From the NCBI RefSeq assembly GCF_004340205.1, contig NZ_SLWB01000013.1, positions 1-64,000 of the forward strand: 64,000 bases of DNA, written 5' to 3'. Positions 55,367-62,979 of the stretch are shown here, in pieces. Source of the DNA: Acetobacteroides hydrogenigenes. GTDB lineage: Bacteria; Bacteroidota; Bacteroidia; Bacteroidales; ZOR0009. The first letter of the stretch is position 1, and each line of letters starts with the position of its first letter. The notes beneath the pieces are model-generated. The model saw only the letters and a list, made by a program, of their open reading frames with translations, was not told where the DNA came from and did no database searches. The position numbers were made by a program, and so were the translations under genes.

Positions 55367-55439
55367 GATTCAGTAGCTCAGCAGGTAGAGCACATCCCTT
55401 TTAAGGATGGGGTCCTGGGTTCGAGCCCCAGCTGGATCA
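55367..55439 (+). tRNA. tRNA-Lys (anticodon TTT), copy 1
   Basis: The cloverleaf folds fully: acceptor GATTCAG/CTGGATC (one T-G pair), D arm GCTC/GAGC, anticodon stem CATCC/GGATG with loop CTTTTAA (anticodon TTT), T arm CTGGG/CCCAG with TTCGAGC. CCA is not encoded. Confidence 0.97.
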
Positions 55440-55461
55440 CAAGGTTAAAAGCATTTTCGGA

Positions 55462-55534
55462 GATTCAGTAGCTCAGCAGGTAGAGCACATCCCTTTTAAG
55501 GATGGGGTCCTGGGTTCGAGCCCCAGCTGGATCA
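55462..55534 (+). tRNA. tRNA-Lys (anticodon TTT), copy 2
   Basis: Identical to copy 1. The spacers after copies 1 and 2 are themselves nearly alike (AAGGTTAAAAGCATT..TTCGGA), so the unit duplicated in tandem. Confidence 0.97.
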
Positions 55535-55558
55535 CTAAGGTTAAAAGCATTATTCGGA

Positions 55559-55631
55559 GATTCAGTAGCTCAGCTGGTAGAGCACATCCCTTTTAAGGAT
55601 GGGGTCCTGGGTTCGAGCCCCAGCTGGATCA
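55559..55631 (+). tRNA. tRNA-Lys (anticodon TTT), copy 3
   Basis: Identical to the others except one D-loop base (AGCTGGTA instead of AGCAGGTA). It is followed by a terminator. Confidence 0.97.
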
Positions 55632-55632
55632 C

Positions 55633-55741: not shown

Positions 55742-56050
55742 ATGAACAGAGTTAGTCAAGCCATAGAGTTGTTCGATCAGCACAGGTACAGCGAAGCTTT
55801 ATCAGAAATAGAAGCAGCAAAAAAAGAGGGTGTTGTGTCATTTGATTTATACCTCTATCAAGGACGAATTCTGCAGAAGATGAGTCAATATGGACCAGCA
55901 ATCAACTCCTACACGCGCGCGATGGAGATCGACCCAAACGATTCTCGTCCCGAGAACGAGATCCAGCTTATAAAAAACATACTCTCCATTACTAACAACT
56001 TTTACTACGAGAACCCTTACACCGATATGGAATTAATTGACAAGCTATAA
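55742..56050 (+). CDS. Small TPR-type protein
   Basis: A 102-aa cytosolic protein with two TPR-like units (AIELFDQHRYSEALSEIEAA and AINSYTRAMEIDPND), ending in a short Glu/Tyr-rich tail (FYYENPYTDMELIDKL). It has its own promoter. Such proteins are protein-protein adapters; no partner is seen. Confidence 0.72.
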   Translation: MNRVSQAIELFDQHRYSEALSEIEAAKKEGVVSFDLYLYQGRILQKMSQYGPAINSYTRAMEIDPNDSRPENEIQLIKNILSITNNFYYENPYTDMELIDKL

Positions 56051-56127: not shown

Positions 56128-56158
56128 TTGCACATTCAGCAAATCATTTCTATACTTG
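56128..56158 (+). promoter_or_regulatory. Promoter of the trp operon
   Basis: TTG (56128-56130), a 20-bp spacer, TATACTTG (56151-56158), one mismatch to TAnnTTTG. Transcription would start near 56164, about 20 nt before the leader peptide ATG. Confidence 0.6.
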
Positions 56159-56183
56159 CAAGCACGAAAAAACAAAAATTAAG

Positions 56184-56246
56184 ATGAATCGCAGTTTACA
56201 ACTTTCTCAAGCATGGTGGTGGCGCAACAAAAATTTGTTGTGTTAA
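56184..56246 (+). CDS. trpL: trp operon leader peptide with three consecutive Trp codons
   Basis: A 20-codon ORF (MNRSLQLSQAWWWRNKNLLC) whose codons 11-13 are TGG TGG TGG (56214-56222). It sits between the promoter and a Rho-independent terminator 110 nt before trpE. Trp is a rare residue, so three in a row in a 20-residue peptide just ahead of Trp-biosynthesis genes is the signature of ribosome-mediated attenuation. There is no Shine-Dalgarno; the upstream sequence is A-rich, as usual in this phylum. Confidence 0.88.
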   Translation: MNRSLQLSQAWWWRNKNLLC

Positions 56247-56274
56247 GCCGTTATGCCTAGTTGAGAAATTGTAA
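56196..56274 (+). promoter_or_regulatory. trp leader pause/protector stem (segments 1 and 2) and antiterminator strand
   Basis: Segment 1 (56196-56210, inside the leader ORF) pairs with segment 2 (56261-56274) in a 14-bp stem with one bulged base, extended by GCAT/ATGC (56211-56214 with 56253-56256). In its loop, CAACAAA (56225-56231) pairs with TTTGTTG (56234-56240). The strand TTGTGTTAAGC (56238-56248), which spans the leader stop codon, pairs perfectly over 11 bp with GCTTAACACAA (56297-56307) in the terminator. That is an antiterminator. A ribosome stalled at the Trp codons would open both stems and free it; a ribosome at the stop codon would cover it. Confidence 0.75.
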
Positions 56275-56286
56275 GACCAAAATATT

Positions 56287-56322
56287 AAAGGGGCTCGCTT
56301 AACACAAGCGAGCCCCTTTTGC
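56287..56322 (+). terminator. trp operon attenuator terminator
   Basis: GGGGCTCGCTT pairs perfectly with AAGCGAGCCCC around AACAC, extended by A-T pairs and followed by TTTT. It lies 29 nt before trpE. Confidence 0.9.
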
Positions 56323-56350
56323 ATTATTCAACTCCGAACTTTATCCGCAT

Positions 56351-57772
56351 ATGAAAACAAAATACAGCCTTAAGAAGAAAGTTATAAAGCTTCCTGCAGA
56401 CACCATCACCCCTGTTGGTGTTTACCTTAAGATGCGCGACATGTACCCTGGCGCTTTGCTGCTCGAGTGTACAGACTACAGCTCGCAGCAAAACGCCTTT
56501 TCGCATATCTGCCTAAATCCGATACTAGGAATAGAGGTAAGTGAAGCAGATGTTTCAACCTACTATCCCAATGGAGAAAAGGCGCTAATAGCAACTGCAA
56601 ACCTTGTAGAACAGATAAACGCTTTTATCAGCAGTATCGAGGTTGTGAACTTTCAAGAAAATGACTTCGGTGTTGATGGACTTTTCGGCTTTACCTCATT
56701 CGATAGCGCTGTTATTTTCGATAAATACCCAGATGATATTGTAGAGAAGGTTTCACAGAACCGTGAAATACCATTCCTCCGCTACGATCTATTCAAGGTG
56801 GTAATTTCGTTTAACCACTTCAACGAAACGCTTGCAATCACCGAGTTTTACAATGAGGATTCGCCGCTATTGCTAACCGAAAGCATTCAGGCGCAACTAA
56901 ACAACCGCAACTTTGGCTCGTATCCCTTTAGCACAGAAGGAAGCGAGAAAAATCCTCTAAAGGATAGCGATTTCAAAGCAATGGTTGCAAAAGCCAAAGA
57001 GCACTGCCAGCGTGGCGATGTTTTTCAGCTGGTAGTTTCGAAACCATACCATCAGAAGTTTAAAGGCGACGAATTTAACGTTTACCGTGCACTTCGTTCG
57101 GTAAACCCATCTCCATACCTATTCTACTTCGACTATATTGGCTATAAGATATTTGGTTCATCGCCAGAGGCGCAGCTGAAGGTTGGCGAGGGTAAGGCAA
57201 CCATCAACCCCATTGCTGGCACAGTAAAACGTACCGGAGATGCGCTAACCGACTTTAAGCTTGCCAACGAACTTATCAACAATCCAAAGGAGAACTCAGA
57301 GCACGTAATGCTGGTAGATTTAGCCCGCAACGACCTGAGCCGCAGCTGCGACAACGTGAAGGTTGAAATCTACAAGGAAATTCAAACGTTCTCGCACGTA
57401 ATCCACCTAGTATCGACCGTTACAGGCGATATTCGCAAAGGCTCCACTCCTTTTACGCTTTTTGCAGACACTTTTCCTGCCGGAACGCTAAGCGGTGCTC
57501 CAAAGCACAAGGCAATTGAACTGATTGTTGATATGGAGCCAACACAGCGCGGTTACTACGGCGGTGGAATTGGTTACATTGGACTAGATGGATCGCTAAA
57601 CCACGCCATTACCATTCGCTCGTTTTTTAGCAAGCATGGCGTGCTAACCTACCAAGCCGGCGCAGGCGTGGTAATTGACTCTACCGAAAAAGGAGAGCTA
57701 CAAGAGGTAAATAACAAGCTTAACGCCCTTCGTTCGGCACTTGAACTAGTATCTAACTACATAAACAAATAG
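56351..57772 (+). CDS. trpE: Anthranilate synthase component I
   Basis: A 473-aa enzyme converting chorismate to anthranilate with TrpG. The N-terminal Trp-binding motif reads LLLECTDY, so Cys40 stands where the LLES Ser of enteric TrpE is needed for feedback inhibition. The catalytic half has the typical GDVFQLVVS, PSPYLFYF, PIAGTVKRTG, LVDLARND, GTLSGAPK and GGIGY. The first gene of the operon, under leader-peptide control; trpG starts 2 nt after its stop. Confidence 0.95.
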   Translation: MKTKYSLKKKVIKLPADTITPVGVYLKMRDMYPGALLLECTDYSSQQNAFSHICLNPILGIEVSEADVSTYYPNGEKALIATANLVEQINAFISSIEVVNFQENDFGVDGLFGFTSFDSAVIFDKYPDDIVEKVSQNREIPFLRYDLFKVVISFNHFNETLAITEFYNEDSPLLLTESIQAQLNNRNFGSYPFSTEGSEKNPLKDSDFKAMVAKAKEHCQRGDVFQLVVSKPYHQKFKGDEFNVYRALRSVNPSPYLFYFDYIGYKIFGSSPEAQLKVGEGKATINPIAGTVKRTGDALTDFKLANELINNPKENSEHVMLVDLARNDLSRSCDNVKVEIYKEIQTFSHVIHLVSTVTGDIRKGSTPFTLFADTFPAGTLSGAPKHKAIELIVDMEPTQRGYYGGGIGYIGLDGSLNHAITIRSFFSKHGVLTYQAGAGVVIDSTEKGELQEVNNKLNALRSALELVSNYINK

Positions 57773-57774
57773 TA

Positions 57775-58350
57775 ATGGCAAATATTCTTGTATTCGACAA
57801 CTACGATTCTTTTACCTACAATTTGGTTCACTACGTACGCAAAGTCGGTGGTCATAATGTTGATGTTTTTAGAAACGATGAAATTGCTTTGGATGATGTT
57901 GAAAAATACGATGGTATCATTCTGTCTCCAGGACCGGGAATTCCAGAAGAAGCAGGCTTACTGCTTCCGCTAATAAAAAGATACTACAGCACAAAAAGAA
58001 TATTTGGTGTTTGTCTTGGTCAGCAGGCAATAGCAGAAGCATTCGGAGGAACGCTCATCAACCTCGAAACTGTTTTCCACGGAGTTGCATCAACCATTAA
58101 TGTAAGCATGCCTAATCATTATATATTTAACGGATTACCTCAAAGAGTTGAAGTAGGAAGATACCACTCTTGGGTGGTATCGAAGGAGACGCTTCCAACC
58201 TGTCTGACCATCGAAGCGGAAGATGAAAATGGCGAGATCATGGCGCTTAGTCACAAAGAATTTGATGTTTGTGGAGTACAGTTTCACCCCGAATCGGTGC
58301 TAACGCCTCAAGGATTCGAGATGATAAAAAATTGGTTAGATAGATTTTAG
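57775..58350 (+). CDS. trpG: Anthranilate synthase component II (glutamine amidotransferase)
   Basis: A 191-aa class I amidotransferase. Triad: Cys80 in GVCLGQQAIA, with His and Glu in FHPESVLTP near 170; oxyanion motif PGPG. Supplies ammonia to TrpE. Confidence 0.96.
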   Translation: MANILVFDNYDSFTYNLVHYVRKVGGHNVDVFRNDEIALDDVEKYDGIILSPGPGIPEEAGLLLPLIKRYYSTKRIFGVCLGQQAIAEAFGGTLINLETVFHGVASTINVSMPNHYIFNGLPQRVEVGRYHSWVVSKETLPTCLTIEAEDENGEIMALSHKEFDVCGVQFHPESVLTPQGFEMIKNWLDRF

Positions 58351-58389: not shown

Positions 58390-59382
58390 ATGAAAAGACT
58401 ACTTACAAAACTCATAGAGCACCAAAAGTTAACCTTCAAAGAATCGAAGGAGCTTATGCTCAAGATTGCCCATAACGAAGCCAATGAGGCACAGATGGCG
58501 GCAGTGCTTACCGCATACGTAATGCGAAACATTACGATAGAGGAGCTACAAGGCTTTAGAAGCGCCCTAATGGAGCTGGCTTTACGAGTTAACCTAAACG
58601 ATGGCAACGTAATAGACCTTTGCGGAACAGGTGGCGATGGCAAGAATACCTTTAACATATCTACCCTTTCGTCTTTTGTGGTTGCAGCTGCTGGCGTACC
58701 CGTGGCAAAGCATGGAAACTATGGGGTATCCTCCATTAGCGGTTCGTCGAATGTAATGGAGCAACTTGGCTACAAATTCTCTAACGACGAAGCAAAACTA
58801 AAGAATGAGATAGAAAATGCCGGGGTTTGCTTTATGCATGCGCCTCTTTTTCATCCGGCACTAAAGGCTATTGGTCCAACTCGTAGACAACTGGGCATTA
58901 AAACCTTCTTCAACCTGTTAGGTCCGCTAGTTAATCCTGCTGCCCCACAGTACCAGCTTAGCGGTGTATACAACGCCGAGGTTGGAAGAATATACTCGTA
59001 CTTTCTTCAATCACAATGCAAGCAGTTTGCCGTAGTGTACTCGCTGGATGGTTACGATGAAGTGTCGTTAACATCGCCAATTAAGCACTTTAGCCAGCAA
59101 GGCGAAACGCTTATCAACTTCGAAGATTTTGGCTTTAGCACCCTATCGGCTAACGATATTACAGGAGGAGCGACCATCGAGGAATCTGCAAAGATATTTA
59201 TGGATGTCCTTAGCGGTAAGGGAAGCAAGGCTCAAAATGATGTGATAGTAGCCAATTCCGCAATAGCAATTAGCTGCTATAACTCTAACAAAAGTCTCTT
59301 GGAAAGCGTTGAAGTTGCTAGAGAGGTTCTTGTTTCGGGTAAGGCATTAAGTACATTCAATAAATTGATTAGCATTCAGTAA
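58390..59382 (+). CDS. trpD: Anthranilate phosphoribosyltransferase
   Basis: A 330-aa enzyme transferring a phosphoribosyl group from PRPP. Motifs: CGTGGDGKNTFNIST near 78-92, KHGNYGVSS and GPTRRQLGIKTFFNLLGPLVNP. It is not fused to TrpG. A gap of 39 nt precedes it. Confidence 0.95.
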   Translation: MKRLLTKLIEHQKLTFKESKELMLKIAHNEANEAQMAAVLTAYVMRNITIEELQGFRSALMELALRVNLNDGNVIDLCGTGGDGKNTFNISTLSSFVVAAAGVPVAKHGNYGVSSISGSSNVMEQLGYKFSNDEAKLKNEIENAGVCFMHAPLFHPALKAIGPTRRQLGIKTFFNLLGPLVNPAAPQYQLSGVYNAEVGRIYSYFLQSQCKQFAVVYSLDGYDEVSLTSPIKHFSQQGETLINFEDFGFSTLSANDITGGATIEESAKIFMDVLSGKGSKAQNDVIVANSAIAISCYNSNKSLLESVEVAREVLVSGKALSTFNKLISIQ

Positions 59383-59383
59383 C

Positions 59384-60205
59384 ATGAGCATACTTAAAGA
59401 AATAGTAGCCAACAAGCAGCATGAGGTATCCCAGCGCAAGCGCGCTGTATCTCTGCTCGAATTGGAGTCGATGCCCAACTTTACGAAAGAGTGCCTATCG
59501 TTTAAGGAGCACCTTTTGAATCCTGAGAAGTTGGGGATAATTGCCGAGTTTAAGCGCAAATCTCCCTCCAAAGGAATTATTAATGCTAATGCTGATGTAA
59601 AGGATGTTACGGCTGGATATCAGGCAGGAGGCGCGAGCACACTTTCTGTTTTAACCGAAATAGACTACTTCAATGGCTCTGATATTGACTTGGCTGAAGC
59701 GAAAAGCGTTACCTCAGTTCCTATTATCCGAAAAGACTTTGTTGTAGATATCTTTCAAATTGCTGAATCGAAGGCTCTTGGTGCTGATGCTATTCTTTTA
59801 ATTGCTGAGGTTCTTGAAAAGGAGCAGATGAGCGAATACCTCGCCTACGCTCACGAAATTGGGCTTCAGGCGCTCATTGAGGTACATGGCGAGTCTGACC
59901 TCGAGAAGCTACCATCGGCGGCACAGATTATTGGCATTAACAACCGTAATCTCAACACGTTCGATGTTAACCTAAGCCATTCTGCCAACATGCTAAACCT
60001 ACTGCCAAAGAATGTGGTGAAGGTTGCAGAAAGCGGAATTGCATCAGTGGAAGATTATTTGCCCCTCAAACAAATAGGTTTTGACGCATTTCTTATTGGC
60101 GAATTCTTTATGCGCAACCACAATCCAGGCGAAGCCTGCCTTAACTTCACAAACGCCATAAGAGGCGCAATTACGGCAGCAAAAGGCAAACCTTCGGGAT
60201 TGTAG
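59384..60205 (+). CDS. trpC: Indole-3-glycerol phosphate synthase
   Basis: A 273-aa TIM-barrel enzyme. Motifs: IAEFKRKSPSKG near 56-67, VLTEIDYFNGS, IIRKDFVVD and INNRNLNTF. It starts 1 nt after trpD. Confidence 0.95.
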   Translation: MSILKEIVANKQHEVSQRKRAVSLLELESMPNFTKECLSFKEHLLNPEKLGIIAEFKRKSPSKGIINANADVKDVTAGYQAGGASTLSVLTEIDYFNGSDIDLAEAKSVTSVPIIRKDFVVDIFQIAESKALGADAILLIAEVLEKEQMSEYLAYAHEIGLQALIEVHGESDLEKLPSAAQIIGINNRNLNTFDVNLSHSANMLNLLPKNVVKVAESGIASVEDYLPLKQIGFDAFLIGEFFMRNHNPGEACLNFTNAIRGAITAAKGKPSGL

Positions 60206-60229: not shown

Positions 60230-62065
60230 ATGGGCACGAAAAGGATATATACTGCGAATTTTCAACTTAAGGTTTGCGGCATAACGCAAGCAGAGAATGC
60301 TATTGAGGTTGCCAAGCTTAACCCAACGATGATGGGCTTTATCCTTTACCCTAAATCGAAAAGATGTGTGAGCCTTGAGCAAGCAAACAGCATTGCTGAT
60401 TTGCTTCCTAAGCATATAAAGAAGGTTGCGGTAGTAGTAAATGAGCCGTTAGAAAAGGTAATACAACTAGCTGAAAGCACATTGTTTGACTTCATTCAGC
60501 TACACGGGAACGAGAGCCCTGAATATTGCCAAACTGTGAGCAAGCACATACACGTTATTAAGGCTTTTGGTATAGAAAAACAGCTGCCTGACAATCTCGA
60601 AGAGTATGCCAATTGCTGCACCTACTTTCTCTTCGACACCAAGACAGAGAATTTTGGAGGAGCAGGAAAACAGTTTGATCATAAAATACTTGATAGCTAC
60701 CATTTGAACGTGCCATTTCTCCTTAGCGGTGGCATCGATTTAGATAGTATTGATAGAATACTTACCTACAGCAACAAGCAGCTTGCAGGTATAGATGTAA
60801 ATAGCAGGTACGAGGATGAACCTGGAATAAAAAACATAGAGAAGTTGAGCAACTTAATAAAAAGACTACGACCAATGATAAAGAAGGTAAGCAAAGAGGG
60901 TTACTACGGTAACTATGGAGGTGCATACATCCCTGAGATGCTGCAAAAGAATGTTTCGGAACTAGCAGAGAACTACCAACGAATAATAGATGACCCTTCG
61001 TTTATCGAAGATTTCCAATCGCTTTTAAAGGATTACGTTGGAAGACCAACTCCGCTATTCCATGCAAAGAAGCTTTCGGCAAAGTACGGCTACAAAATCT
61101 ACCTAAAGCGCGAGGATTTATGCCATACTGGATCACATAAGCTCAACAACGTAATTGGGCAGGCGCTGCTCGCCAAGCGTTTGGGAAAGAAGAAGATTAT
61201 TGCCGAAACAGGTGCAGGTCAGCACGGGGTGGCATCGGCAACCGTGGCAGCGCTACTCGGCATGGAGTGTACCGTTTTCATGGGTGAAGTAGACATACAG
61301 CGACAGTATCCTAACGTTATGCGCATGAAGATGCTAGGTGCAACGGTAATACCAGCAACTTCGGGCACGAAAACCCTTAAGGATGCCTGCAACGAGGCTA
61401 TCCGTTACTGGATATCGCACACCGAGGATACCCACTACCTAATTGGATCTGCAATCGGACCACATCCCTATCCCGATATGGTTGCACAGTTCCAGTCTGT
61501 TATTAGCGAGGAGATCGCGAAGCAGCTGCAAGAAAAGGAAGGCAGAAGCTATCCTGATGCCGTAATTGCATGCGTTGGAGGTGGAAGCAATGCAGTTGGC
61601 GCCTTCTACCACTTTATCGATGACGAAAGGGTTGAGCTATACGGTGCCGAAGCTGGTGGCTGTGGCGCCGATACCGACGAGACTGCCGCTACGCTAACCA
61701 TCGGCACCGATGGAATTATCCACGGAACAAGAACCATCCTTATGCAAACCGAGGATGGACAGGTATGCGATGCTCACTCTATTTCGGCAGGGCTGGATTA
61801 CCCCGGCGTAGGTCCGCTGCATGCGCACCTGCATAGCATTAAACGTGGCACCTACCTTCCTATTACCGATCAGGAGGCGCTAGATGCGGCATTCGAGCTT
61901 ACCCGCGAGGAAGGAATTATCCCCGCACTAGAATCTTCGCATGCGCTTGCCCTTCTTCCTAAGCTAAAGATGAAGCCAACCGACATTGTGGTGGTTAACC
62001 TTTCGGGAAGAGGCGACAAGGATATGCAAACGTACATCGACCTGATGAATTCGGGAAAGAAATAG
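60230..62065 (+). CDS. trpFB: Phosphoribosylanthranilate isomerase / tryptophan synthase beta fusion
   Basis: A 611-aa fusion. Residues 1 to about 215 are TrpF (Cys16 in LKVCGIT, general-acid Asp136 in LFDTKTENFGG, LLSGGID near 164). Residues from about 219 are TrpB (GYYGNYGGAYIPEM; PLP Lys304 in HTGSHKLNN; GGGSNAVG). Codon 216 is ATG (60875), followed by IKKVSKEGYYG, i.e. where a separate TrpB would start. TrpF and TrpB do not act consecutively, with TrpC between. The order C-F-B-A is kept. Confidence 0.92.
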   Translation: MGTKRIYTANFQLKVCGITQAENAIEVAKLNPTMMGFILYPKSKRCVSLEQANSIADLLPKHIKKVAVVVNEPLEKVIQLAESTLFDFIQLHGNESPEYCQTVSKHIHVIKAFGIEKQLPDNLEEYANCCTYFLFDTKTENFGGAGKQFDHKILDSYHLNVPFLLSGGIDLDSIDRILTYSNKQLAGIDVNSRYEDEPGIKNIEKLSNLIKRLRPMIKKVSKEGYYGNYGGAYIPEMLQKNVSELAENYQRIIDDPSFIEDFQSLLKDYVGRPTPLFHAKKLSAKYGYKIYLKREDLCHTGSHKLNNVIGQALLAKRLGKKKIIAETGAGQHGVASATVAALLGMECTVFMGEVDIQRQYPNVMRMKMLGATVIPATSGTKTLKDACNEAIRYWISHTEDTHYLIGSAIGPHPYPDMVAQFQSVISEEIAKQLQEKEGRSYPDAVIACVGGGSNAVGAFYHFIDDERVELYGAEAGGCGADTDETAATLTIGTDGIIHGTRTILMQTEDGQVCDAHSISAGLDYPGVGPLHAHLHSIKRGTYLPITDQEALDAAFELTREEGIIPALESSHALALLPKLKMKPTDIVVVNLSGRGDKDMQTYIDLMNSGKK

Positions 62066-62199: not shown

Positions 62200-62979
62200 A
62201 TGAATAGAATACAGAGCCTATTTGCCAATAAAAAGAGAGGAATCCTGTCGGTTTACTTTACGGCAGGATACCCCAACCTTAACGATACAGTTCCAACCCT
62301 CGAAGCCTTCGAAAAGCATGGGGTTGACATGGTGGAGCTGGGCATACCCTACTCCGATCCTTTAGCTGATGGTCCCACCATTCAGGAGTCGTCGACCATT
62401 GCAATTCGTAACGGGATGCGTATTGAGGTGCTACTAAGCCAGCTTAAGGAAGTTCGCCAAAAGGTGAGCATCCCCATTGTGCTGATGAGCTACTTCAACC
62501 CAACCTACCTTTACGGATTCGAGCGCTTCTGCAAGCAAGCATCGGAGGCGGGTGTCGATGGGCTTATTATCCCCGATTTGCCCGCTTACGAGTACGAAAC
62601 TACCTACAAGCCGATTGTTGAGCGATACAACCTATCGTTTAACATGCTCATCACCTCCGATACGCCCGACGAGCGAATCAGAAAGATCGATGAGCTTACC
62701 AACGGCTTCATCTACATGGTTAGCTCGGCGGCAACTACCGGTGGCACATCGAGCATGTCCGACGCCCAGATGGACTACTTTAAGCGAGTATCGGAAATGA
62801 AGATGAACAACCCCTTAATGGTTGGATTTGGGGTGCACAACCAGCAGACATTCGCCGAGGCAACCACCTACTGCAACGGAGCCATAATTGGCAGCGCCTT
62901 TATCCGTGCGCAGAAAAACGGCGAAGATGTTGATACAACCGTAAAAAAGTTTGTTTCATCAATTACAGGCAATCAATAA
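62200..62979 (+). CDS. trpA: Tryptophan synthase alpha subunit
   Basis: A 259-aa TIM-barrel enzyme. VYFTAGYPNLNDT, catalytic Glu in ELGIPYSDPLADGP, the Asp in IPDLP, and VSSAATTGG. Cleaves indoleglycerol phosphate and channels indole to TrpB. Separated from trpFB by a 134-bp repeat-bearing gap. Confidence 0.95.
   Translation: MNRIQSLFANKKRGILSVYFTAGYPNLNDTVPTLEAFEKHGVDMVELGIPYSDPLADGPTIQESSTIAIRNGMRIEVLLSQLKEVRQKVSIPIVLMSYFNPTYLYGFERFCKQASEAGVDGLIIPDLPAYEYETTYKPIVERYNLSFNMLITSDTPDERIRKIDELTNGFIYMVSSAATTGGTSSMSDAQMDYFKRVSEMKMNNPLMVGFGVHNQQTFAEATTYCNGAIIGSAFIRAQKNGEDVDTTVKKFVSSITGNQ

Follow-up and report, generated by a model that had tools for sequence, protein, structure and literature searches.

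A predicted leader-peptide attenuator ahead of the trp operon of Acetobacteroides hydrogenigenes, with a candidate antiterminator centred on the terminator loop

Candidate attenuators in Bacteroidetes/Chlorobi are reportedly mentioned in the abstract of a 2004 study by Vitreschak. The closest described system is the Rfam family RF01692, “Bacteroid-trp” or “Bacteroidete tryptophan peptide leader RNA” (Weinberg et al., 2010; PMC2864571), and that article gives Bacteroid-trp in Table 1 as a Bacteroidetes motif with a “y” for cis-regulatory. Bacteroid-trp is also described in PMC6414381, in which a structural similarity is noted and psychrophilum is mentioned. Indications that leader-peptide attenuation operates ahead of amino-acid operons in F. 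psychrophilum are given in PMC9723704, which names 5′ elements at pheA and hisG. Hence, the case for novelty made in an earlier note on this DNA, namely that most trp operons of Bacteroidota are not described in this way, does not stand in view of RF01692 and of these passages of PMC2864571 and PMC6414381. Two other systems were used for comparison, i.e., the Trp_leader family RF00513, which is of the E. coli trpL type, and the actinobacterial trp attenuators of PMC1262725.

The window, i.e., the whole analyzed stretch of 64,000 nucleotides, carries on its + strand the trp genes in the order trpE-G-D-C-FB-A: trpE at 56351-57772 (Pfam PF00425 and PF04715), trpG at 57775-58350 (PF00117), trpD at 58390-59382 (PF00591 and PF02885), trpC at 59384-60205 (PF00218), a trpF-trpB fusion in one ORF of 611 aa at 60230-62065 (PF00697 at 14-211 and PF00291 at 271-593) and trpA at 62200-62979 (PF00290). 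Upstream of trpE, a promoter-like pair of Bacteroidota type, according to the consensus that we take to apply here, consists of TTG at 56128-56130 and TATACTTG at 56151-56158 on the + strand, with 20 nt between them. It is followed on the same strand by a leader ORF of 20 codons, MNRSLQLSQAWWWRNKNLLC, at 56184-56246, which ends with a TAA stop at 56244-56246 and contains TGG TGG TGG at 56214-56222, three Trp codons presumed to be the sensor. No other complete ORF in the 64-kb window has WWW behind an ATG. A short ORF with tandem Trp codons is therefore found ahead of the trp operon, as in a ribosome-mediated trp attenuator, and both the promoter-like pair and the ORF are present where the earlier note had placed them. 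In the same region, three tandem tRNA-Lys (TTT) genes with equal scores were observed at 55367-55632, and the congeneric locus L002 likewise has three tRNA matches there.

The putative antiterminator strand (strand 2), TTGTGTTAAGC at 56238-56248 (+), overlaps the leader stop codon and is the perfect 11-bp complement of 56297-56307 (+), with a duplex energy of –13.6 kcal/mol. Its target begins 4 nt below the loop in the terminator 5′ arm, runs through all 5 nt of the loop and ends 2 nt into the 3′ arm. The earlier note had identified this pair correctly; what is unusual about it, namely that it is centred on the terminator loop, had gone unremarked. Without a ribosome, strand 2 is predicted to be masked in a long 1:2 hairpin at 56196-56274 (+; –33.0 kcal/mol), of which the apical 5′ strand is 56220-56230. 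Such masking had been proposed before and is retained, whereas the 14-bp stem and the 7-bp hairpin to which it had been attributed are replaced by this one long hairpin.

Like Bacteroid-trp RF01692, the window combines a UGG-rich WWW leader with a terminator before trp genes. Unlike the loop pairing of the window, the RF01692 model stops at the terminator 5′ arm (GGCUUGUC), before the loop, so that the loop and the antiterminator pairing are absent from it. The extent of the model was seen against L037, L045, L067 and L080, and a model built anew might detect such leaders more widely in the phylum. At E values up to 10, no RF01692 match was obtained in the window (gathering cut-off, 49 bits), and the only match in the window’s own genome lies elsewhere, at 26.2 bits. 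L018 and L019, from the window’s order, gave 41.7 and 39.8 bits, below the same cut-off of 49. At threshold, RF01692 matched on the WWW leaders of 11 of 20 named loci, presumably all of flavobacterial genera as judged by title, and missed the other nine, including one flavobacterial locus, L075. The Trp_leader family RF00513 resembles the window in its tandem-Trp leader peptide, mutually exclusive hairpins and terminator; it scored 21.6 bits against 56212-56321 in a 241-base search (E 0.028, cut-off 41) and was unlisted for the window in a 2501-base search. Its matches at L005 (28.9 bits, on the leader) and L006 (27.4 bits, on the other strand and elsewhere) are weak, do not reach that cut-off and carried no weight. 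In the scan described below, the best helix of E. coli trpL (n = 1), CGGGC:GCCCG, lies wholly in the 5′ arm, whereas the window helix spans the whole loop. The actinobacterial attenuators share double or triple UGG codons, an antiterminator and a terminator, but PMC1262725 presents conserved complementary triples, gGCC-rGCy-GGCC, where the Bacteroidota loci have loop-specific complementarity. In the literature searched, whose coverage was partial, no leader-peptide attenuator was found to be described with antitermination centred on the loop. The window attenuator is a divergent representative of a known kind, whose candidate loop-capturing antiterminator is possibly undescribed.

The terminator is an intrinsic hairpin at 56287-56319 (+; –24.6 kcal/mol) with a stem of 14 contiguous bp, 56287-56300 with 56306-56319, made of an 11-bp core and three A-U pairs, and with the 5-nt loop AACAC at 56301-56305. 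The earlier note had recognized this hairpin, although as an 11-bp terminator at 56287-56322, an extent corrected here. The U-tract TTTTGCATTAT at 56317-56327 (+), at and after the hairpin foot, is short. An intrinsic terminator is thus located between the leader and trpE, as in a ribosome-mediated trp attenuator, albeit with a short U-tract. The fold of 56160-56330 had a z-score of –7.1 and was equalled by none of 200 shuffles. Because of the short U-tract (CCCCTTTTGCATTATT), the consensus terminator scan listed no + strand terminator at the hairpin, and the window (L001) was missed for the same reason by the detector of leaders with terminators. Longer T-runs than in the window are present in its two congeners, L002 and L003. 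The short + strand U-tract, the listing of the hairpin on the – strand only and the end of the upstream TPR-protein ORF at 56050 would also suit a terminator of that gene, or a minus-strand element, with a trp operon that is not attenuated. This reading is very unlikely: the promoter-like element and the Trp leader lie between the TPR gene and the hairpin, and the same arrangement heads trp genes, before trpE or trpB, in relatives.

A ribosome-mediated transcription attenuator of the trp operon is very probably the best explanation of the locus; translation of the leader, stalling, timing and termination in the cell are its inferred parts. When charged tRNA-Trp is plentiful, the leader ribosome would reach the stop codon at 56244-56246 and cover strand 2, leading to the formation of the terminator at 56287-56319. 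Without a ribosome, the 56196-56274 hairpin would sequester strand 2, and the terminator would form too. Instead, when Trp-tRNA is scarce, the ribosome would stall at 56214-56222 and cover the 5′ side of the 56196-56274 hairpin, which would leave strand 2 free to pair with the loop and the apical arm (56297-56307) as these emerge. The terminator would then come too late, and RNA polymerase would read into trpE. This attenuation logic, already outlined in the earlier note, is supported by conservation, by compensatory changes and by the predicted folding of three states.

The folding of the states was simulated with the window RNA taken as free from 12 nt past the first base of the A-site codon. 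In the stalled state, the antiterminator was the minimum-energy fold for RNA 3′ ends from 56300 to 56315, and the full terminator won at equilibrium from 3′ end 56317. Since the terminator wins at equilibrium even with a stalled ribosome, the switch must be kinetic. Neither without a ribosome nor with a ribosome at the stop codon did the antiterminator ever occur in the predicted folds of the window. The computational folding that the earlier note had recommended therefore gives the antiterminator in the stalled state only, and structure prediction yields an alternative structure that is freed by the stall and blocked at the stop codon, as in an attenuator. Judging from the coordinates, the loop helix would be expected to block the terminator: its 11 bp could coexist with the lower 10 bp of the hairpin only if the helix were spanned by no more than 2 nt (56308-56309), a sterically implausible arrangement.

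The same states were folded for the 128 distinct loci described below, where at least five pairs between leader and terminator were counted as pairing. When 6 nt of the 3′ arm had emerged, pairing was predicted in 105 of the 128 loci in the stalled state, in 18 without a ribosome and in 12 with a ribosome at the stop codon, while 314 of 640 permuted terminators paired in the stalled state. The corresponding numbers were 123, 61 and 22 of 128 (permuted, 479 of 640) with 4 nt out, and 30, 3 and 0 of 128 (permuted, 80 of 640) with 8 nt out. Taken on its own, the stalled-state test is weak, because permuted terminators often pair too.

Conservation was assessed in 185 loci encoding a full-length TrpE relative. 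They comprise 28 loci from 60 genomes of the window’s genus and order (L029 and L030, 30-33% identical and likely paralogues, being excluded), 80 named loci and 77 further loci of the window’s order. The named loci are the best 80 of 592 confirmed stretches and hence no sample of the whole phylum. The further loci, a part of the matches obtained, consist of 17 from one search (30 minus 13 repeats of genomes already sampled) and 60 fetched regions. A clustered-Trp leader followed by a terminator was found at 132 of the 185 trpE loci, i.e., 128 distinct loci and four exact duplicates (L064, L120, L126 and L197). The 128 include the window, added manually after the detector had missed it. Three of 131 detector hits (L014, L020 and L164) lie inside trpB; they were dropped before the pairing counts and placed with the leaderless loci. 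Named carriers include Flavobacterium, Tenacibaculum, Chitinophaga, Sphingobacterium, Dyadobacter, Algoriphagus and Draconibacterium. In dinucleotide-shuffled upstream regions, a WW leader with a terminator was obtained in 0 of 640, by a U-tract rule that the window itself would fail. At 47 of the 53 leaderless loci, a TrpB C-terminal motif is present within 400 nt upstream, so that trpE is not the first gene there. Among the seven trpB-first loci with 1500-nt flanks, five have a WW(W) leader and a terminator ahead of trpB, and none was found before trpB in L020 and L139. With either trpE or trpB as the first gene, the element thus mostly heads the operon. Six trpE loci have neither a leader nor an adjacent TrpB motif (L028, L042, L141, L153, L159 and L190).

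Within the 128 distinct leaders, WWW occurs in 112, WW in 127 and an ATG start in 127. The terminator loop lies at a tightly distributed distance from the first Trp codon, with a median of 80 nt (IQR 76-85). The peptide outside the Trp run varies widely among loci while the Trp codons are kept. Of 125 loci, 75 have a TAnnTTTG or TAnnCTTG element no more than 75 nt ahead of the leader start, against a mean of 10.0 and a maximum of 22 in mononucleotide shuffles. A known leader RNA, whose model is narrow, is thereby seen in numerous additional lineages of a major phylum. These data also bear on whether tryptophan supply might be sensed by an RNA that binds a ligand or tRNA (T-box, TRAP-type or Trp riboswitch) instead of by translation. 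Such elements reportedly control trp genes in other bacteria, but here the Trp-codon ORF is the constant part across loci, and an Rfam search at E up to 10 listed no T-box or riboswitch family in the window stretch; sensing of that type is scarcely credible.

The site bound by strand 2 was studied with a scan that started 18 nt past the first Trp codon and covered at most 70 nt, the best uninterrupted helix with the terminator being scored. The 128 loci were complemented with a redundancy-reduced set of 29 representatives (<60% identity). Cognate leaders had a mean stacking of –12.94, as compared with –10.08 for permuted ones, and 0 of 2000 permutations were as good; in the representatives, the values were –12.35 and –9.64, with 0 of 5000 permutations as good. 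The complementarity was located by z-scores (n = 128 and n = 29, respectively). They were –9.3 and –5.5 for the 5′ arm plus the loop, –9.0 and –2.6 for the loop plus the 3′ arm, +1.5 and +0.5 for the 3′ arm, and +0.8 and 0.0 for a control stretch ahead of the leader. The best helix touched the loop in 109 of 128 loci (57% when permuted) and included at least three loop bases in 86 (38% when permuted). Among the 29 representatives, it touched the loop in 23, held at least three loop bases in 17 and missed the loop in 6; besides, it overlapped the leader stop codon in 12 and, in 27, lay where a ribosome at that codon would cover it. A further helix with the base of the 5′ arm, suggested by duplex prediction, was rejected as not cognate-specific in the permutation test.

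It could be argued that the antiterminator is an ordinary one directed at the 5′ arm, as in E. coli trpL, and that the complementarity to the loop arises simply because the best helix was selected. Best helices purely in the 5′ arm occur in L009, L015, L050, L088 and L181, and also in L044; loci of Chitinophagaceae and Sphingobacterium look more 5′-arm-directed. The apical 5′ arm itself reaches z-scores of –3.6 (n = 128) and –2.0 (n = 29), and in the window, 4 of the 11 pairs fall in the 5′ arm, with 5 in the loop and 2 in the 3′ arm. The lower 5′ arm, however, has z-scores of +1.1 (n = 128) and –0.2 (n = 29), as against –16.0 and –8.5 for the loop ±3 nt, and an ordinary 5′-arm antiterminator is for this reason considered rather unlikely. 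Capture centred on the loop, and not pairing to the 5′ arm, is the specific mechanistic claim made here, and we are less sure of it than of the rest of the explanation. As a kind, the attenuator is ordinary and well conserved; the proposed loop-capture geometry of the antiterminator, which is testable and has statistical support, deserves to be examined at the bench.

Compensatory changes were sought in ten loci with a GTGTTAAGC-type motif and a matching terminator. As these loci are related and were picked by hand, the counts that follow do not represent independent events. Pairs 1-7 between strand 2 and the terminator are standard in all ten loci, and pairs 8, 9, 10 and 11 in 8, 7, 7 and 7 of them, some of pairs 8-11 being lost in four (L031, L032, L144 and L184). 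Both sides have changed at pair 6 (L184), pair 9 (L004) and pair 11 (L004 and L006), and wobble changes occur at pairs 4, 5, 6 and 11. The comparison of upstream regions of relatives proposed in the earlier note thus returned a leader ORF with its Trp codons kept (in the 132 of 185 loci above) as well as compensatory changes in the pair. An eleventh locus, L135, was left out of the ten: it has GTGTTAAGC, but its terminator, GCTTACC, breaks the sixth pair. Reading by eye, its loop matches another stretch instead (ATCCG with CGGAT).

With respect to the leader codons, the motif of the ten chosen loci is found in each of the three frames, which places the constraint on the RNA and not on the peptide. 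This finding weighs on a further possibility, that the leader peptide acts in trans or has a function of its own and that the terminator is incidental. A precedent is provided by peTrpL of Sinorhizobium, which acts in trans according to PMC7298713. In the present loci, the wide variation of the peptides outside the Trp run, together with selection on the RNA at strand 2 as indicated by its three different frames, makes a trans-acting peptide highly improbable in place of an attenuator that operates in cis.

Besides the trp leader, other amino-acid leaders were observed in the window’s genome (G000). Upstream of hisG (86084-86548 on contig C13, beyond the window), L202 has an HHHHH leader (MKLFNLHHHHHAACHRVWV from the nearest ATG) and then a terminator, and it is a probable His attenuator. 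Its predicted antiterminator helix lies mostly in the 5′ arm (six of eight pairs), with two pairs in the loop. Upstream of a PF00800 match at 147340 on contig C4, i.e., a prephenate dehydratase gene, L204 has two tandem Phe/Tyr-rich leader frames, the second read by eye, each with a terminator; both predicted phe attenuators have their best antiterminator helix in the 5′ arm. Beside these predicted 5′-arm his and phe attenuators, we lean slightly toward the view that most Bacteroidota have a trp attenuator that works by loop capture, in which the strand released by the stall would be under selection to pair with the apical loop on its exit from the polymerase and nucleation of the terminator would be blocked, with a topology unlike the 5′-arm sequestration of E. 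coli trpL. Finally, an Ile/Leu/Val-rich leader, MNIHHIILPILVVRVIKPMIV, and a terminator were observed at L203, upstream of a PF00920 match at 16490 on contig C23 (ilvD), where the predicted complement of 11 bp involves the apical arm plus the loop, with 6 and 5 of the 11 pairs, respectively.
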